DNA from: Ignavibacteria bacterium GWF2_33_9
Lineage (GTDB): Bacteria; Bacteroidota; Ignavibacteria; Kapaibacteriales; UBA2268
NCBI GenBank assembly: GCA_001804565.1
Contig: MHAC01000010.1
Coordinates: 1,000-40,742, forward strand
Length of the DNA stretch: 39,743 bases
Direction: 5' to 3'
Shown piece after piece: positions 1,084 through 39,743 of this stretch (within the stretch, counting starts at the first letter, position 1; each line of letters begins with the position of its first letter). The notes below the pieces were generated by a model. The model did not search any database and was not told the origin of the DNA. It was given only the letters and a program-made list of their open reading frames with translations. The translations under genes were made by a program, and so were the position numbers.

Positions 1084-2753
1084 TTTGTGGAATTTAAAAT
1101 TAGGAAATAAATTCCATCGGTAAGTAAGATTAATTTTTGTGATTGATTAGAATAGATTATTCCGTCATGTATCTTTTGACCAAGTATATTAAATATCGAA
1201 ATTTGAAAATCAATATCTGAATTATTTTCTATTATCTTATCGGTGGAATTTATTATTATTTTATTATTAATTTCATCCTCTAATGAATTTATGGGGTGAA
1301 TTTCAAAATCTGCAATAATTGGTAAATGATCAGAAGATAACGTTGAAGCATTTTTTGCAAGACTAAATTTTTCCAAATCTTCTTCACTCAATTTTTCTGT
1401 ATTGAATGTATATGACTTTTTCATTTGAGATGAAAAATCGCTAAATACAATATAATCCATTTTAGCAGGCCAATATGATGAATAATATTTACTCCAAGTG
1501 TAACAAAATGGTGAGTTAGAGTTCCTAGCATTGACTTCGGCAAATGCTGAATTATCCCAATCAATATTTTTGTCTGTAATCACTTTTTCACCATTAAGCA
1601 AAAGTTTCCATTGTTCTGAATTACCAACCAGATTCATATCTCCGACAATGAAAATTGGAGAATTTCTGTCAAGTGATAATTCTGCACTCCCTTCTTTTAT
1701 TTCTTTAACAAAATCAATAATATTTTGTATCTCATTCAACCTCTTTACATTTTCATTACCTGCAGGAAGATGGCAATTTATCACAATACAATTCTGATTA
1801 TATTTTGCATGCAAATCAAGAAGATATGCGCAATTTCCATTCAATTGTTTTGTAGCTTTTATTGGGTATTTTGATGCAAGGATTATGTCTGTATATTCTT
1901 GCTTTTTGACATACCAATTCTTATCTTGAAAGGTATTGTTTATTAAATTTTTAATAAATACTTCATCTGTTTCATAAAGTTCCTGAAAGCACATTATATC
2001 AGGTTGATTTAACTTAATTATTTCACAAAAATATGCCGTAAGATTTGTGTCAGCAATGTTATCCTGCAAACAATTCCATGTGAAAATTCGTAAATATTCA
2101 TCATTTTCTTTTGTAATATCAATTGGAATTAAAGGAATTTGGTCGCAATTAGCAAAATTGAATTGAAGAAAGTCAATTTTTTCATCAGGACAAACATCGC
2201 TTTCATTTTGTACTGAAAACGCAAATTTGACACCATCGGAAGAGAAAATGACGGAATCTTTAAATTTTGCAAATTTTGATATGGTGAATTCGAATTCATT
2301 GGATGAATAACTTGGCATTCCACATAATTCGATAAAGGATGGCCTAATTATAAGAGAATCATTTCCAAAATAAAATTTTCCGGACTTTTCAGAGCAGTCA
2401 TAAACAATATCTGCACCAATATTGCTAAAATTGAATCCGGTTTGATTATTCAAATCACAATCGATATATATTTTGAAATTCCCCTCTTCCTGAATCAATA
2501 ATTCTTCATTGAATTTGATATTAAAGAAAAGGTAATTATCATTTTGTGAAAATTTTATTGATAAAATATCAAATTTTCCTTTTGAGTCTGTATCTTCGTC
2601 TAGAATTGAGGGTACCTCATTCCAGTCATCAAAATATCCATCCAAAACTATATTACTGCAAAAAGAGTATTCATTCGATAATGATGTATAATTTGGAAAG
2701 AGTTCCAATATTAAAAATATAGATAAATAATATTTAATTTCTGAAAAAATCAT
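984..2753 (-). CDS. Secreted endonuclease/exonuclease/phosphatase-family protein with T9SS sorting domain
   Basis: The protein has 589 residues from the ATG at 2753; a TTG two codons earlier is also open. Order: signal peptide (about 1-26); a beta-sandwich resembling CBM9/DOMON-like modules (about 35-200, starting LDGYFDDWNEVP); an endonuclease/exonuclease/phosphatase domain (about 220-485); a T9SS type A sorting domain (about 490-568). Family hallmarks visible are the TWN Asn (227), QE (257-258), NCHLP His (328), GDMN (371-374), MDY Asp (433) and SSDH (473-476), so the catalytic set looks complete. It probably cleaves nucleic acid or a phosphodiester outside the cell; the substrate is not readable from sequence. 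It overlaps the upstream hydrolase by 20 bases, suggesting coupling. Its last 21 residues run past the normal sorting-domain end into the antisense of the barrel gene. Confidence 0.82.
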   Translation of the reverse strand: MIFSEIKYYLSIFLILELFPNYTSLSNEYSFCSNIVLDGYFDDWNEVPSILDEDTDSKGKFDILSIKFSQNDNYLFFNIKFNEELLIQEEGNFKIYIDCDLNNQTGFNFSNIGADIVYDCSEKSGKFYFGNDSLIIRPSFIELCGMPSYSSNEFEFTISKFAKFKDSVIFSSDGVKFAFSVQNESDVCPDEKIDFLQFNFANCDQIPLIPIDITKENDEYLRIFTWNCLQDNIADTNLTAYFCEIIKLNQPDIMCFQELYETDEVFIKNLINNTFQDKNWYVKKQEYTDIILASKYPIKATKQLNGNCAYLLDLHAKYNQNCIVINCHLPAGNENVKRLNEIQNIIDFVKEIKEGSAELSLDRNSPIFIVGDMNLVGNSEQWKLLLNGEKVITDKNIDWDNSAFAEVNARNSNSPFCYTWSKYYSSYWPAKMDYIVFSDFSSQMKKSYTFNTEKLSEEDLEKFSLAKNASTLSSDHLPIIADFEIHPINSLEDEINNKIIINSTDKIIENNSDIDFQISIFNILGQKIHDGIIYSNQSQKLILLTDGIYFLILNSTNYNSKPIIKRVLNSGLPSVIVPIPQSVPHANQN

Positions 2754-3498
2754 TTGCAATATCCCTGAAAACCTCCTTTTGGGTTGTCATAAATGGATGT
2801 TTACCAAAATCAAAAATTTGATACTGCGAATTTTGTATTTGAGAGCACACTTCAATCAAGCGTTTATCTATATTTGGAATTAATTCATCCTCTGTTGATG
2901 CAATACCTAACACTTTCGATTTAATAGATTTCAAATCACCAATTATGAGTGGTAATCCTTCATATCCTACTCTTAGCATCAAGTCTAAATCATTATCTAA
3001 AACTTTTTCCCAATCGCTCCCATGTTGTGATTTCCAAAACTGCTGTGACAAAAAATTTGATTGTTTTGACCTTACTCTTTTTTCAACAATCGAATCAGCT
3101 TCTTCAGGAAGTAAATAGGTGCCTAAAAAACTATCCACTATTAATTTTTCAATCAAATCCTGCTTTAAAATAGCTAAATTCAGACCAACTAAAGCTCCGC
3201 CACTAGTTCCAATTGCAAAACAAGATGAGATACCCAGAAAATTACATAATTCTGAGGCTGCTTTTGCATTGAAATTCCAAAAGTCATCCCTAAATCGCTT
3301 CACTCGTCCGCTTTTTCCATGACCGGGATAATCAAAGGAAATAACTTTAAAGTGTGAAGAAAAAAAATTAAAATCAAAACGAAACATTTCTGAAGAAACA
3401 CTATTCCCATGTAATAAAAGGAGAGGTTGCCCCTCTCCTTTTATCTTAAAAAATACTTCTTGATTATTAAAATCAAAATAATCAGTTACAGATTGCAT
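2734..3498 (-). CDS. Alpha/beta-hydrolase fold protein
   Basis: 254 residues, about normal for a single-domain alpha/beta hydrolase. Visible signatures: the oxyanion LLLLHGNS (26-33), FDYPGHGKS (55-63), nucleophile elbow GTSGG with Ser99, acid Asp204 in STEDELIP and His234 in GKHPFM, giving a complete catalytic triad. No signal peptide, so probably cytoplasmic. Likely an esterase or related hydrolase; the substrate cannot be inferred. It starts two bases after the stop of the secreted 188-residue protein, and its 3' end overlaps the nuclease gene, so the three form a tight transcription unit. A strong hairpin lies inside its 5' part (3416-3442). Confidence 0.88.
   Translation of the reverse strand: MQSVTDYFDFNNQEVFFKIKGEGQPLLLLHGNSVSSEMFRFDFNFFSSHFKVISFDYPGHGKSGRVKRFRDDFWNFNAKAASELCNFLGISSCFAIGTSGGALVGLNLAILKQDLIEKLIVDSFLGTYLLPEEADSIVEKRVRSKQSNFLSQQFWKSQHGSDWEKVLDNDLDLMLRVGYEGLPLIIGDLKSIKSKVLGIASTEDELIPNIDKRLIEVCSQIQNSQYQIFDFGKHPFMTTQKEVFRDIANDFFRN
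3416..3442 (-). other. Intragenic 11-bp hairpin followed by a short T tract
   Basis: AAAAGGAGAGG at 3416-3426 and its exact complement CCTCTCCTTTT at 3432-3442, five-base loop. On the transcribed minus strand it ends in TTTT and lies about 57 bases after the hydrolase start codon. It could act as an attenuator or RNA stability element, or be a coding coincidence (it encodes part of KIKGEGQPLLLL). Confidence 0.45.
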
Positions 3499-32611: not shown

Positions 32612-35600
32612 ATGAGTAATAACAACACTTTAAAGAATTTTCTAAAATGGCAATTAGTTCTTGTATTCTTACTAGGAATGCTAATGCCAAAGGTTTCGTT
32701 TGCTCAAAATCCGCTCCCAGAGGGATATTGCGAACCTCAGAAACCACAACCAACCTGGCCGACAACATATTATTATTGTTACCCGGCTTATTATCCTGTT
32801 ATGTATGGTTATGACCCATACTACGGCTCGAGAATTGTTGATGTGAAAATCACAAAAACAGACGGCGAAGTAGTTATGGATAATCCTACATCAACATCAC
32901 AGTACAATAAATACAATACTGTGGATTGTTTTGAGTTCTTTAATGATCCCGCAAAGATTATTCAAGTAGCTCCAGGGGAAACATATAATTTCACCACTAC
33001 AATCCAACATATTTATGGATTTCAATCTTATAATTGTACAACATATTACTTTACTCAAAGATTATTTATTGACTGGAATTTAGATGCTGATTTCGTTGAC
33101 TCAGGTGAATGGATAAATGGACCCACAGGACCTAATCCTTCTCCTGCATGGCGTAACTATACTGCTTCATGGGCACCAACAGGCTGCCCAACATTAAAAA
33201 CATATACTTATCAAATAAAAATTCCTGAAACATTAGAACCTGGTTTTACAAGAATCCGATTCATGACTTCTTACTATTATCCCTATGTTGATGCTCCTTC
33301 AACTACTTATTCAGATTTTTCAGGTGCAAATCCATGTCATAATGCTTATTGGTATAATTATGCAGAACCTCCATATAACTATGGCTACGGTTACAAATAT
33401 TCTTATGGCGAAACAGAAGATTATATTATGGAATTCCAATTACCAATAAAAGAAATGTTTCCTTCAGATAAAGAACCCTACGATTTACTTCGTGCAGGTG
33501 TTTACTATGATGATACAAATGGAAATGAAAAACCTTGGGTAACATTTTATGGAGCTCAAGCTTCAGGCGTACAAATGCAGTATGAAATTTACGGACCATT
33601 ACCAGCTACTGATGTAGTTTACAAAGCTTATGACCCTAACACAAGCAATCCATGGATTGAACTAGCCGGTCTTGATAATATTCATATGAGTAATTCATCC
33701 GGTTTATTCTCAGTTGGTGGAAATGGTACATTTTATTCAACCATCGGCGGTGAATATATGGTGAAAGCAACTGTAAGGAAACCTGGTACTACAGATAAAA
33801 TTTTATATAAAAAATTCACTGTTTCCTGGCCTGAAGATTTAAGCGTTTTCCGTATTATTTCTCCTAGAGCTGCCGGTACTCCTGATTATTTCCAATATCC
33901 AAGAGATAATCCAATAGCTCTAACTGCTGAATTCCAAAATGTTGGTGAATTCGATATTACTAAATTCAAAGCAATTTTTGAAATTTACGATACTGATGGT
34001 TCGTTAATGCATGTTTATTCAAAAATCTACGATGTAGCTGATGGAAATCCTGCTCTCAAAAGAGGCGATAAAACCATCGTTATTTTAGATAATTCTTTCA
34101 TTACTAGTAATGTTGGATTTTATAAAGTTGTATGCAAAGGTGAACTACTCAGCGGCGATGACTATTATATGTTTAATAATGTTTCCCGCAGAACAACAGA
34201 AGAACCATTATTCGCTTCGGTTCAATTCGAATTCCAAGCTGGTGCAGAAGATATAACCTTCCCTAAGACTTCATCCGAAGTAATTGCTTATCGTCCTTTC
34301 CGCCCAATCGGTTATTTGGCAAATAAAGGTTTGAACGATATCAGTGATGTTCTTTGTACTTTCCAATATTATCTTAAGAGTAATCCAAGCATTGGAGGTA
34401 CTAAGGAAGTACTTGTAAAAGAAGTTGCATCAGGATTAAACAATAATAAGAAATACGCAATTTTCCCAAGTGTAACTCTTACTGAACCAGGTGAGTATCA
34501 TTGTGTGTTTACAGTAAATCTTGATGGTGATGGTGATCCTAGTGATGACGTAATGGAAGGTGACTTCACAGTTGTTTCCGGTATGAGCGGTACTTATACA
34601 ATCGGTAAATTAAATTCAGGAAGTCCACGTAATTACGGCTCAATAGATGAAGCTACTTCAGCTCTATACTTAAAAGGTTTGAGCGGTAATGTAACATTCG
34701 AATTTACTGACTCTCAATATGATGTTTATTCTCCATTCCTCGGTGAAGCTGCTTGGGATTTATCCAGTGCAATTCTTGGTTTGGGTTATGATGAACAAAA
34801 AGATGAATATCATACATTAACATTCCGCCCTAGTGCAGATATGGCTGCATCAGAAAACACCGTTGCTATTAACTTACATTCCCAAAACGGTAAAGGTATC
34901 GTGTTTGGTCAATCAAGTTCAAACGTAAATGCATTTGCAATTATCAATCAGGATATTGAACATGAATTGAAAGGACCTTTTGTAAATAGCGGTGGATATA
35001 TTACTTTCGATGGTGGTAATAATAAATCTTTGAATTTCACAATTTACAGTTTAACTAATGACCATGCTTCAGTATTCTACTTAGGTCGTGGTTCTTCAAA
35101 TATCACAATCAAGAACTGTTTGATTAATAATGGAACAGATGCTACATTCAACAAAGCATATATTCCAAGAGTTGGTTATAATGTTGCAGATGGTTTCAAA
35201 TTCCAGGATGATATTTATACTGATGTTAATGGTATGCATACATATAGCGCAGGTATTGTAAACCGTGCTTCAATTTCGTACGATGCTCAAGAAAAACAAT
35301 GGGGCGTACTTGCTGAAACCAACCATAATAATACCATTGAAGGTAACGTTATCAAAAACTTTGGTATTGGTATTATGAGTATGGGTATTGGTGCAAATCT
35401 GAATAGTCAAAATATATTCTATAAATTCTTCAACTCAAACAATGTTATTAAAAATAATGAAATCAGCAGAATTGCTTATGCTGGTATTTTCGTTGGTTTC
35501 GAAGACAATACAGAAGTAAGCTACAATAACATTTACAAAGTAGAAGGCAGTGTTGAAGGATATGGTATCCTTGCCGGTTATAATGGTGAAGGTAGTTATT

Positions 35601-38329
35601 TTGGTTACAATAATACTAATTTGACAATTGCCGGAAATCAGATTTATAATATTAATGCAAATTACCAAACAATGGGTATTGCTGTTGATCAGTCATTAAT
35701 ATCGCTTGCAAATTCTGATGCAACAGACTTTAAAATGCCAGATGGTTCAGATAATATCAATATTAATAGTAATGCAATTTGGGATATTAATGCAAATCAA
35801 GCAAGTACTATTCTTTGCGGTATCTATTGTGGAACTGAACGTAGTGACTTATTTACAACTCCGGTACATCCAAATTACAATATTGACAATGCTACCATTG
35901 CAAATAATACTGTAATAATTAATAATGATGAATTTTCAAATTCACAACCTTTGGCATGTATAGGAATTCAAAATACTAATAATTTGACTTTTGCAAATAA
36001 TGCATTAGCTAATTTGGATGAAGACAATACCAGCGGTATTAATGCATTAGTATTTTATGAAGGATCAGAAGTTCGCACAAACTCTAACTTAGTAATGGAT
36101 AACAATGCATACTATACTATTGAAGGTGTAGAAGTTGTTCGCTTCATTGAAACAGACCTTTCATCCAATATCCTTGAATTTGGTCAATACAATGAATTTG
36201 CTACTTTAGACCAATGGAAACTTTGGACCGGCCGAGATATAACATCAAGCTTTGGTTATAACTTTGTTAATGACTTAGTATTCCAAGGTGCTGATCCAAT
36301 GTTTGTATCCATGAAAACTAATCCTCAGCCAAAAGGTTCCGTTCTCAATAATCGTGGTAAGATTCTTAGTAATGTGACTAATGACATTTATCATAATGTT
36401 AGAGGTCAAAGTAATCAATATTATGATATTGGTGCAATTGAATTCAGTGGTCAGCCTTATATTAAGGATGTTGAACCATTTGGATTAATTAAAACAAATG
36501 TTAAGAAAAACACAGCACCGCAAGACTTCTCTGATGGATATTATGAAATGATTGACGAAATCACTAATTTCCAGGCAAGAGTTTATAATGGTGGTATAAA
36601 TACACAGTCACAAATTCCAGTAACAATTTCTATTTCTGTTGAAAATCCTGATGGTACTTTCAGCGGTTATATTAATGATACTAAATTTATACCTACATTG
36701 GCATCTTCAAGTTTTGCTGATGTTGATTTTGAATTGGCAGATGGCGTAGGTAATGAATTTGCTCCTAAGAGTTATTATGAAATTAATGCAGCACGTTCAG
36801 CACAAGGTCTTTCAACATTCTCAATTCCTTCTCAATTTATGCCAATGTATGCTAATGTAACTCCGCTTTACAAAGTAGAAGTTTCAACTCCATTGGATGA
36901 AAATAACAACAATAATACTAAGACTTATTACTTCAGATATTATGTAAGCAGAAGTCCAATTGACTTGATGACAATCGGTGGAAGTGATTTGACAGATATT
37001 TCTGAAAATGCCGGTATCAATGAAATTGCTACAAAAGAAAACTTGAATAAATTGAATTATGCACTCAAAGATTTAGGCTGGTACAATGACTATAGTGAAG
37101 GTAGATTCGATGTTGATTACATGTATTTCCCGGGATGGATGCCACAAGCACTCAACTTTAACCATTATACATCTGTAATTTGGTCAGATCAAGACTTCGA
37201 ACAATCTAGCAACAACTTAACAATTTATCAAGTTAATGCTCTCGGCAGATTCCTAGAAGAAGGTAACAATGGTGGTAAGAGAAATCTTATTATGGCATCT
37301 CAGGAAATTGCAAGATTAAACCGTCTTGGTTATGGTCAGACATTCCTGAATGATTACTTCAAGTTGAATAATAATTATCCATCAAATCCATTTGGTATTA
37401 ATGGTGATTATAATAACAACACAATTAAAGGTGTTGACATTGCTAAGAATTACATCTTTACTATCAAATCAACAGATATCACTGGTGATGATTATCCAAA
37501 ACCAGGTCTTTTGATGTTCAAAAATGAGACACCTGGTCAAACATTTATAGGTCATATTTATACAAAACTTGAACAAGGTAAAAATGGCGAAAATGATACT
37601 GAACCATATCCAAATAGTGAAAGAATTATGAGTGTTGCTACTAGTAACATTGCTTATAATGCTGTTTATCTTGGTGTGGATTGGCGTCACTTTGGTGATA
37701 TTATTTCCGTTGTTCGTGGTGTTAGTGACTTTATTGAATATCACGGAGGTAATTTATTACCTGTTGAATTGCTCAGCTTCAATCCTGAAGTTGCAGGTAA
37801 GAGAGTTGATATTAACTGGTCAACTTCTTCTGAAACTAATTTAGCTACATTTGAAATTGAAAAAGCTAATGGAACAAATACTGATTTCCGCACTATCGAA
37901 AAAATTCCTGCAAAAGGTAATAGCGTAGATGTTGTGAAATATGGTCCTGTTCAAGATTTGAATGTTGAATATGGTCAATCTTATTCATATCGCCTGAAAA
38001 TGACTGATAAAGACGGTTCTGTAAATTACAGTGATGTTAAAACAGTTGAAATTCGTGGCGAAGTTGGCTTTATCAACTTGAGCGATTTCACTCCAAGTCC
38101 TGCTTCTACTACAGCTAAAGCTGAATTAGTATTAGGTAATGAAATGCAGGTTCAAATTGCACTTTATGATATGAGCGGAAGATTAATAAACACCTTGATG
38201 TCAGGCAATCAAATTGCCGGTACTCAGGATGTGTTAATTGACGTGAAATCATTAACAAGTGGTACTTACACTATCATCCTCACTGCAGGTGATGTTGTAA
38301 TTACAAAGAACTTCCAAGTAGTCAAATAA
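32612..38329 (+). CDS. Giant surface protein: GEVED, Ig-like, beta-helix and T9SS sorting domains
   Basis: 1905 residues. Signal peptide about 1-31 (ends VSFAQ), then a Tyr/Pro-rich stretch (about 46-72), a GEVED domain (about 90-275, with LFIDWNLDADF near 148 and GETEDYIMEF near 266), beta-sandwich repeats (about 280-675), a right-handed beta-helix region (about 810-1160) with Asn-rich rungs such as NNTIEGNVIKN and NNVIKNNEISRI, a DUF11/Ig-like part, and an alpha/beta domain (about 1449-1710) that may be a flavodoxin- or GATase1-like fold. Then a fibronectin-like unit (about 1720-1815) and a T9SS type A sorting domain to 1905. Secreted via Sec then T9SS to the cell surface; probable adhesin or surface-layer role. 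AGG precedes the ATG only weakly; a strong terminator follows. Confidence 0.88.
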   Translation: MSNNNTLKNFLKWQLVLVFLLGMLMPKVSFAQNPLPEGYCEPQKPQPTWPTTYYYCYPAYYPVMYGYDPYYGSRIVDVKITKTDGEVVMDNPTSTSQYNKYNTVDCFEFFNDPAKIIQVAPGETYNFTTTIQHIYGFQSYNCTTYYFTQRLFIDWNLDADFVDSGEWINGPTGPNPSPAWRNYTASWAPTGCPTLKTYTYQIKIPETLEPGFTRIRFMTSYYYPYVDAPSTTYSDFSGANPCHNAYWYNYAEPPYNYGYGYKYSYGETEDYIMEFQLPIKEMFPSDKEPYDLLRAGVYYDDTNGNEKPWVTFYGAQASGVQMQYEIYGPLPATDVVYKAYDPNTSNPWIELAGLDNIHMSNSSGLFSVGGNGTFYSTIGGEYMVKATVRKPGTTDKILYKKFTVSWPEDLSVFRIISPRAAGTPDYFQYPRDNPIALTAEFQNVGEFDITKFKAIFEIYDTDGSLMHVYSKIYDVADGNPALKRGDKTIVILDNSFITSNVGFYKVVCKGELLSGDDYYMFNNVSRRTTEEPLFASVQFEFQAGAEDITFPKTSSEVIAYRPFRPIGYLANKGLNDISDVLCTFQYYLKSNPSIGGTKEVLVKEVASGLNNNKKYAIFPSVTLTEPGEYHCVFTVNLDGDGDPSDDVMEGDFTVVSGMSGTYTIGKLNSGSPRNYGSIDEATSALYLKGLSGNVTFEFTDSQYDVYSPFLGEAAWDLSSAILGLGYDEQKDEYHTLTFRPSADMAASENTVAINLHSQNGKGIVFGQSSSNVNAFAIINQDIEHELKGPFVNSGGYITFDGGNNKSLNFTIYSLTNDHASVFYLGRGSSNITIKNCLINNGTDATFNKAYIPRVGYNVADGFKFQDDIYTDVNGMHTYSAGIVNRASISYDAQEKQWGVLAETNHNNTIEGNVIKNFGIGIMSMGIGANLNSQNIFYKFFNSNNVIKNNEISRIAYAGIFVGFEDNTEVSYNNIYKVEGSVEGYGILAGYNGEGSYFGYNNTNLTIAGNQIYNINANYQTMGIAVDQSLISLANSDATDFKMPDGSDNININSNAIWDINANQASTILCGIYCGTERSDLFTTPVHPNYNIDNATIANNTVIINNDEFSNSQPLACIGIQNTNNLTFANNALANLDEDNTSGINALVFYEGSEVRTNSNLVMDNNAYYTIEGVEVVRFIETDLSSNILEFGQYNEFATLDQWKLWTGRDITSSFGYNFVNDLVFQGADPMFVSMKTNPQPKGSVLNNRGKILSNVTNDIYHNVRGQSNQYYDIGAIEFSGQPYIKDVEPFGLIKTNVKKNTAPQDFSDGYYEMIDEITNFQARVYNGGINTQSQIPVTISISVENPDGTFSGYINDTKFIPTLASSSFADVDFELADGVGNEFAPKSYYEINAARSAQGLSTFSIPSQFMPMYANVTPLYKVEVSTPLDENNNNNTKTYYFRYYVSRSPIDLMTIGGSDLTDISENAGINEIATKENLNKLNYALKDLGWYNDYSEGRFDVDYMYFPGWMPQALNFNHYTSVIWSDQDFEQSSNNLTIYQVNALGRFLEEGNNGGKRNLIMASQEIARLNRLGYGQTFLNDYFKLNNNYPSNPFGINGDYNNNTIKGVDIAKNYIFTIKSTDITGDDYPKPGLLMFKNETPGQTFIGHIYTKLEQGKNGENDTEPYPNSERIMSVATSNIAYNAVYLGVDWRHFGDIISVVRGVSDFIEYHGGNLLPVELLSFNPEVAGKRVDINWSTSSETNLATFEIEKANGTNTDFRTIEKIPAKGNSVDVVKYGPVQDLNVEYGQSYSYRLKMTDKDGSVNYSDVKTVEIRGEVGFINLSDFTPSPASTTAKAELVLGNEMQVQIALYDMSGRLINTLMSGNQIAGTQDVLIDVKSLTSGTYTIILTAGDVVITKNFQVVK

Positions 38330-38396: not shown

Positions 38397-39743
38397 CTAC
38401 AATAACTTTTTGGATTTATGCATTAAAGGATTTAATAACTCCTGGAAATACTGAGACTGTTCAAAATCAATGTCATCAATAATTGTAATATCAAGTAATT
38501 TTTCCTTCCGGATTCCTGTACGATTATAATTTATCGAACTCAATGAGGCATTCCAACCCTCAGCCCATAGTAGAAAATCATCTTTCATTTCATTGTTTGC
38601 ATGCATTAGTATTAAGAAATCAATATCTGAATCGGGCATTGCATTTTCGTAGAAAACACTTCCTGTGAGATAAACTCCTTCAATATTAAACTTAGATGCA
38701 TTAATTGTATTCACAAAAGCTTCTGCCATCCTTAATCTCCATGTTTGCGATTCTGCAAGATTAATAATATTTGAATTTGAAGATGTGGATTCTTCAACAA
38801 TATCCTGGCTTAAAAAAGCAACAGCTTGTTCTTCATCAGAATTCATTAAAATTCTCAAGATTCTTCCATACGAAATTTCCCGAATATTAATTACTTTCAA
38901 TATGTGAGAAATATGCGAATATTGTTCCAGAAATCTTTCTAAAGTATTTGGTGCTTTTTCAAAAAATTCATAATTATAATTAACAGATGAATCTTCAGGA
39001 TATAGTGGTAAGTAAAAGATATTGGATTCGACTAAATCTTGGAAAAAATGAGTCCCAAAAGAAAGTTCCGGAACATAACCGTTTTTGTTCTGGGCAATTT
39101 CAATCAACATTGCAGTATTATTAATATCAGAATATGCTACTTTCACACCGAGACGAATATCATCTCTCGTACCCCATCTTCCTGGTCCCATAAGCACGAA
39201 AGTCTTTTTGGGCAGTATTCTGTTTAAATATCCAATTGCCCTTGCGACATCCTCTAATTCACTCAAATAAGAGGATTCTCCGTATTTTTTGGGGTCAACA
39301 TAAACAATATATGCAATATTTGGTACAATTGCATTTGAAACATGTTTACGAGCTGTAAAAAGTATATCATCGGCTGGAATATTTTTAGGTATTGGTTCAG
39401 GTTTAGTATCTATTCCAAAATAACTTTGCTGACGACATTGAAGCAAATATAAATTAGATCCATCGCAAGCAAATTCAATATCTACAGGTACCTGAAAATA
39501 ACTCTTTAAAGCCGTTAATAATGTACCGATTTGGCTGATATATTTAGTTCTGTTTATAAGATTATTAAAAGTTACAATGATATCGTCTCTTTTTGTATCA
39601 ATTCCTAATCCGACAGGTGCCTTAATATTCATAGGTTCTATAATCGAAAAAACTTCATTAATTAATGGGAAATTTGTTCCGATTTCTTCAATTAAAGAAC
39701 TAATTTCAACTGTTTCAAAGGTATTTGATTCCAAGTTTATTAA
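38397..39743 (-). CDS. PEP/pyruvate-binding domain protein fused to a nucleotidyltransferase domain (N-terminal part missing)
   Basis: Open to the right edge, so the start is outside; a TTG at 39734 would give 445 residues but is probably internal. Residues 1-105 (counted from 39734) are the end of an ATP-grasp PEP/pyruvate-binding domain (VDIEFACDGSNLYLLQCRQQ, like the PPDK N-domain close). A middle region has GPGRWGTRDDIRLGVKVAY (183-201) and SFGTHFFQDLVE. Residues about 330-445 form a nucleotidyltransferase: GS at 358-359, DSDID with Asp370 and Asp372, and a third Asp at 415 in LLDITII. All catalytic residues of the Polbeta-like fold are present. Known as uncharacterised PEP/pyruvate-binding domain proteins in Bacteroidota; substrate unknown. 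Confidence 0.82.
   Translation of the reverse strand, partial: LINLESNTFETVEISSLIEEIGTNFPLINEVFSIIEPMNIKAPVGLGIDTKRDDIIVTFNNLINRTKYISQIGTLLTALKSYFQVPVDIEFACDGSNLYLLQCRQQSYFGIDTKPEPIPKNIPADDILFTARKHVSNAIVPNIAYIVYVDPKKYGESSYLSELEDVARAIGYLNRILPKKTFVLMGPGRWGTRDDIRLGVKVAYSDINNTAMLIEIAQNKNGYVPELSFGTHFFQDLVESNIFYLPLYPEDSSVNYNYEFFEKAPNTLERFLEQYSHISHILKVINIREISYGRILRILMNSDEEQAVAFLSQDIVEESTSSNSNIINLAESQTWRLRMAEAFVNTINASKFNIEGVYLTGSVFYENAMPDSDIDFLILMHANNEMKDDFLLWAEGWNASLSSINYNRTGIRKEKLLDITIIDDIDFEQSQYFQELLNPLMHKSKKLL

Follow-up and report, generated by a model that had tools for sequence, protein, structure and literature searches.

The window analysed here is a stretch of 39,743 nucleotides (C10:1000-40742) from a genome of 2.65 Mb in 87 contigs, and it ends inside a gene. 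An open reading frame on the minus strand (38397-39743) encodes the C-terminal 448 residues of a PPDK_N–GPGRWG–nucleotidyltransferase (NT) protein, with its 5′ end open beyond the window. The window stops where a scaffold gap of 15 N begins (C10:40743-40757). On its far side the reading resumes in a different frame, giving about 100 more residues of the same protein before the contig ends. The change of frame is consistent with the nominal size of the gap, a position at which relatives have about 14 residues, and there was no sign of a broken gene. Fetching the missing N-terminus from the adjoining contig had been proposed in the preliminary description; its roughly 430 residues were located at the start of contig C62, leaving a short stretch unaligned. 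On C62, a glutamate dehydrogenase (GDH) gene (1502-2785, plus strand; Pfam ELFV dehydrogenase) adjoins the N-terminal part and is divergent from it. The convergent neighbour on the other side (window 32612-38329, plus strand) encodes a secreted protein of 1,905 residues, the C-terminus of which resembles, by appearance, a type IX secretion sorting domain.

PPDK_N, an ATP-grasp domain, is represented by its last part at 39423-39545 of the minus strand (residues 67-107, Pfam E 2.7e-5). With no more than this part in the window, the match fell slightly short of the cut-off; by alignment it contains the conserved ATP-site residues E90 (39474-39476), Q102 (39438-39440) and R104 (39432-39434). A GPGRWG/GTHFFQD domain with approximate borders (38808-39386, minus strand) follows. 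It carries the GPGRWG motif (residues 186-191, 39171-39188), which is invariant in 77 relatives, and the SFGTHFFQDLVE region (39027-39059), in which the alignment places an invariant His232 at 39048-39050. The last part, identified by Pfam and by a structure model, is a minimal NT domain of the Polbeta/NTP_transf_2 fold (residues about 329-448, 38400-38759, minus strand), with the active-site motif G361-S362-x10-D373-I-D375 at 38619-38663 and a third catalytic Asp, D418, at 38490-38492. NTP_transf_2 was matched at residues 347-393 with an E-value of 4.5e-5, above its cut-off, and Polbeta was matched as well. The preliminary description had read from the sequence both a fusion of a PPDK_N end with an NT and a GS-x(10)-D-x-D motif with a third Asp. 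The fusion is real, as seen by Pfam on the window frame and in complete form in relatives, and G361, S362, D373, D375 and D418 are all present in the window.

The complete architecture was obtained from full-length relatives of about 1,030-1,070 aa; the window's protein has roughly 1,040 residues. Relatives in four genomes of the same genus are 59-61% identical over the window part and have open frames of 1,034-1,044 residues. From N- to C-terminus, the relatives consist of a GAF-like domain, a helical domain, a complete PPDK_N ATP-grasp domain, the GPGRWG…GTHFFQD domain and the minimal NT. In one full-length same-genus relative, 61% identical over the window part, Pfam placed PPDK_N at 334-703 (E 1.2e-53) and the NT at 946-993 (NTP_transf_2, E 9e-7). 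The same architecture was present in 77 aligned sequences from many phyla, ruling out a chance fusion or a frameshift artefact. The preliminary description had framed its survey of such fusions on Bacteroidota; the family reaches well outside that phylum. An AlphaFold model (77 sequences) had a mean pLDDT of 84, and its N-terminus matched the GAF domains of NifA and Nlh1 in a Foldseek search of the PDB, with weak E-values; no Pfam family matched this domain in the window's own protein. Large proteins from elsewhere in the phylum, with lengths of up to 1,713 aa, also carry the GAF-like domain (profile positions 7-135; e.g. G112:C46:3728-4120 and G118:C23:144774-145157), and these carriers are possibly sensor kinases.

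The phospho-histidine (PEP-utilisers) and PEP/pyruvate TIM barrel domains gave no match in five full-length relatives and paralogs at E<=0.1, and none was found in the C-terminal parts of the 77 relatives at E<=0.01. Their absence from the window, already remarked in the preliminary description, is therefore not a result of the truncation. No complete gene with standard PPDK/PEP synthase domains occurred among the full-length relatives, and a standard enzyme of this kind with its remainder on the next contig was rejected, since the complete same-genus relatives have no such domains. The ATP-grasp part of the AlphaFold model matched rifampin phosphotransferase (RPH) and PEP synthase in the PDB with an E-value of 3e-13 (Foldseek). 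K331, R430, E677, Q689 and R691 (numbering of the relative L042), which from knowledge of PPDK, PEP synthase and RPH we take to be ATP-site residues, are kept in every one of the 77 aligned sequences that covers them. The NCBIfam equivalog cut-offs for PEP synthase and PPDK were not reached (67 bits versus 598 and 18 versus 843, respectively).

The GPGRWG motif is part of a conserved domain in its own right, about 190 residues long. What the preliminary description called a conserved linker region thus turned out to be an invariant domain common to several paralog classes. Pfam gave no match for it and the PDB no convincing one, and a Foldseek search of the PDB with a model of the last 336 residues matched the NT part only. 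In PPDK, a His of the following domain receives a phosphoryl group from the ATP-grasp domain. By analogy, the invariant His of G(S/T)HFF may be regarded as a candidate phosphoryl acceptor.

The last 336 residues of the window's own protein, modelled separately, had a pLDDT of 87, and the best PDB match was 2rff (E 1.2e-4, Foldseek), followed by the MntA antitoxins and aminoglycoside adenylyltransferases. The model thus places the C-terminal part inside the NT fold, as the preliminary description had predicted. The fold also very weakly matched the adenylylation domain of the glutamine synthetase adenylyltransferase GlnE (3k7d, E 0.15). The equivalog cut-off for MntA was not reached (21 bits versus 60). 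PADLOC matched the NT part alone, with weak scores, and the protein was not filed as a defence protein. Among the 77 aligned sequences (L042 numbering), G949 and D1006 were present in all 77, D961 in 76, D963 in 74 and S950 in 73, and GS-x10-DxD with the third Asp was found letter for letter in 70. Altered motifs (GSDND, GSNKD and GRDDD) were seen in a few members of the NT class, and in G038 the gene has a form with the NT domain largely missing.

The gene neighbourhoods of 80 relatives were compared; these were fetched from a genome collection of mostly metagenome-assembled genomes and span Kapabacteria, Ignavibacteria, Zixibacteria, Acidobacteriota, Aminicenantes, Calditrichota, Spirochaetes, Phycisphaerae and others. 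In 67 of them the locus includes a GDH gene. Eleven of the 13 loci without GDH end within about 3 kb upstream of the gene, leaving two real negatives (L039 and L062). The position of GDH varies: on the same strand it occupies -1, -2 or -3, and in other loci it is divergent. A calcineurin-like phosphoesterase gene follows the NT gene in 41 of 90 loci, a set in which a few genomes have their locus entered twice; it is usually convergent and thus outside the operon of the NT gene. Four long open reading frames (L049, L089, L097 and L111) were considered as possible GDH–regulator fusions of the Rosetta stone type and were rejected. Judged by eye, they contain no GDH domain, and their extra N-terminal residues resemble out-of-frame translation upstream of the start. 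In L046 and L147, from one lineage, the GDH–regulator cluster is directly followed by genes that by appearance are hisG-, hisD- and hisC-like, as in histidine biosynthesis.

The distribution of the gene was compared with that of GDH in 197 genomes of the class, 196 of which have some GDH. A GDH subtype was defined as at least 64% identical to the GDH of the window's own genome, the threshold lying at a visible gap between 64% and 53%. Counted from search listings, and with the core-only form in G007 and G013 and the G038 form scored as the gene and two contig-end fragments accepted as the GDH of G007, both gene and subtype were present in 54 genomes, the subtype alone in two, the gene alone in one and neither in 140. 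Fisher's test, which ignores phylogeny, gave a P value of 7e-45, and an exact test stratified by family, with variation in five families, gave 6e-12. The two genes lie within 12 kb of each other in 43 pairs, hundreds of kb apart on one contig in two, and on different contigs in eight; the window's own genome is counted in the last group solely on account of its gene being divided between two contigs. In G331 and G434, gene and subtype co-occur on one contig without being linked. The link to GDH is strong, and the protein is probably a functional partner of this enzyme. Linkage and co-occurrence show partnership, not its direction or chemistry. Residues specific to the GDH subtype, compared with eight sequences, include H115, H154 and S184, and no single candidate modification site stood out among them.

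The ATP-grasp and GxGRWG domains occur in four paralog classes, namely the 1,060-aa NT class, a response-regulator class of about 1,000 aa, and core-only classes of 787 aa and 585 aa. GxGRWG and the His of G(S/T)HFF are common to all four. In 41 of the 90 loci the gene immediately upstream of the NT gene encodes a 585-aa core-only paralog, in most cases placed so that it separates the NT gene from GDH. Of 20 loci with response-regulator paralogs, 17 have GDH genes alongside, and one such locus has three GDHs, two of the NADP-specific type and one of the archaeal type (NCBIfam). The relation between core and GDH is thus seen again where both the sensor module and the class of GDH differ. Since the 585-aa and response-regulator paralogs have no NT and still lie beside GDH, the general link does not depend on the NT. 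In the clusters of L150 and L153-L159 (e.g. L154:3029-15482), two or three different GDH genes lie interspersed with two response-regulator–PPDK_N–GxGRWG genes. At least one member of the response-regulator class (L031) has a DUF5752 domain between the receiver and the ATP-grasp domain; no paper on DUF5752 was found in the open-licence literature. For two 787-aa paralogs without NT from the window's family (L029:6602-8947 and L030:7802-10132), there was no GDH within about 15 kb, and these paralogs may have another partner.

Because the family adjoins and nearly always co-occurs with one type of GDH, its product is probably a dedicated regulator of that GDH; the fuller reading, a signal-sensing regulator that acts probably by covalent modification, is one to which we give about an even chance. 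In the proposed mechanism, the input would be a nitrogen/carbon or redox signal, sensed by the GAF-like N-terminus (in the paralogs, by the response-regulator domains) and gating the ATP-grasp core. The core, together with the GPGRWG/GTHFF domain, would bind ATP and probably transfer a phosphoryl group. Transfer of an NMP, with AMP the likeliest, would fall to the C-terminal NT, the most plausible acceptors being GDH and the regulator itself. This modification would switch GDH activity, and the calcineurin-like phosphoesterase is a candidate for reversing it. Regulation through some modification is again a roughly balanced proposition, and any particular chemistry is held with less confidence. 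The preliminary description had suggested either a protein-modifying regulator, which fits the tight link to GDH, or activation of a small acceptor combined with nucleotide transfer, for which no positive evidence emerged. A broader picture, in which a phylum-spanning system of PEP-synthase-type ATP-grasp proteins with swappable sensors (GAF-like or response-regulator), one class of them with an NT, covalently modifies GDHs, is put forward tentatively.

The link to GDH would also fit if the ATP-grasp and NT domains only bound adenine nucleotides and the protein were a non-covalent nucleotide sensor, an allosteric partner or scaffold of GDH with little or no turnover. Some members with degraded NT motifs and the rest kept, as well as the core-only paralogs that accompany GDH, are consistent with such a role. 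However, in both enzymatic domains the catalytic residues hardly vary across many phyla, a degree of conservation not needed for binding alone, and we consider a sensor of this kind rather unlikely.

A metabolic enzyme, that is, a dikinase-like kinase (with nucleotidyl transferase activity in addition) acting on a GDH-related small molecule such as a 2-oxo acid, in the manner of PEP synthase, was also considered. The ATP-grasp domain is indeed closest to PEP synthase and RPH, and the partner GDH makes a 2-oxo acid, but the acceptor and phospho-histidine domains of those enzymes are absent from the complete relatives, and the GAF-like and response-regulator inputs point to regulation; this role appears improbable. 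Shared nitrogen-control expression could in principle account for the GDH neighbourhood of an NT that acts elsewhere, by making a nucleotide second messenger or modifying RNA, and the fold is also near CdnE and RNA uridylyltransferases in Foldseek, with weak scores. Yet it is nearest to minimal NTs, and the co-occurrence with one GDH subtype, both unlinked and within families, exceeds what shared expression predicts, so that an NT of this sort is highly improbable.

In nearly every bacterium, GDH connects carbon metabolism with that of nitrogen. To our knowledge there is no dedicated modifying regulator of GDH in these phyla, and none was found in the open-licence literature. A full-text search of the same literature found no description of the family. 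The connection of this gene to GDH is new in the present analysis. A family with two intact ATP/NTP-using domains that is nearly always found with one GDH subtype is a testable candidate for a GDH regulator. Moreover, a likely role can now be assigned to proteins that match the PEP/pyruvate-binding Pfam domain and score far below the cut-offs for PEP synthase and PPDK. GlnE and GlnD (PII uridylyltransferase) are NTs that control nitrogen enzymes, and a modifying regulator of GDH, if confirmed, would be another NT-based node of bacterial nitrogen control beside them.

Compared with known systems, the family shares with PPDK, PEP synthase and RPH a PPDK_N ATP-grasp domain with conserved GGK, VRSSS, E and Q-x-R ATP-site motifs. 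Unlike them, it has neither the phospho-histidine swivelling domain nor a PEP/acceptor domain, and instead carries the GPGRWG/GTHFF domain, the NT and an N-terminal sensor-like region. Its own paralogs (the response regulator–DUF5752–PPDK_N–GxGRWG proteins and the 585-aa and 787-aa forms) have the same ATP-grasp and GxGRWG/G(S/T)HFF core, and the first two adjoin GDH as the NT class does; they differ in the absence of the NT and in having receiver domains or no N-terminal sensor. MntA, a protein adenylyltransferase of type VII toxin–antitoxin systems, has the same fold and the same GS-x10-DxD…D motif, and NTs of this type are known to AMPylate a protein partner (PMC7641770). In contrast, the NT described here is fused to a protein of more than 900 residues, and, in neighbourhoods surveyed for GDH, the paralogs and the phosphoesterase, its conserved neighbour is a GDH, where MntA has a toxin. 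Neither GlnE nor GlnD families were among the Pfam or NCBIfam matches, and control of GDH here would be analogous to, not homologous with, control by GlnE or GlnD. The idea of an NT that controls a central nitrogen enzyme is the same, whereas the partner of this family is GDH and the family carries an ATP-grasp domain.
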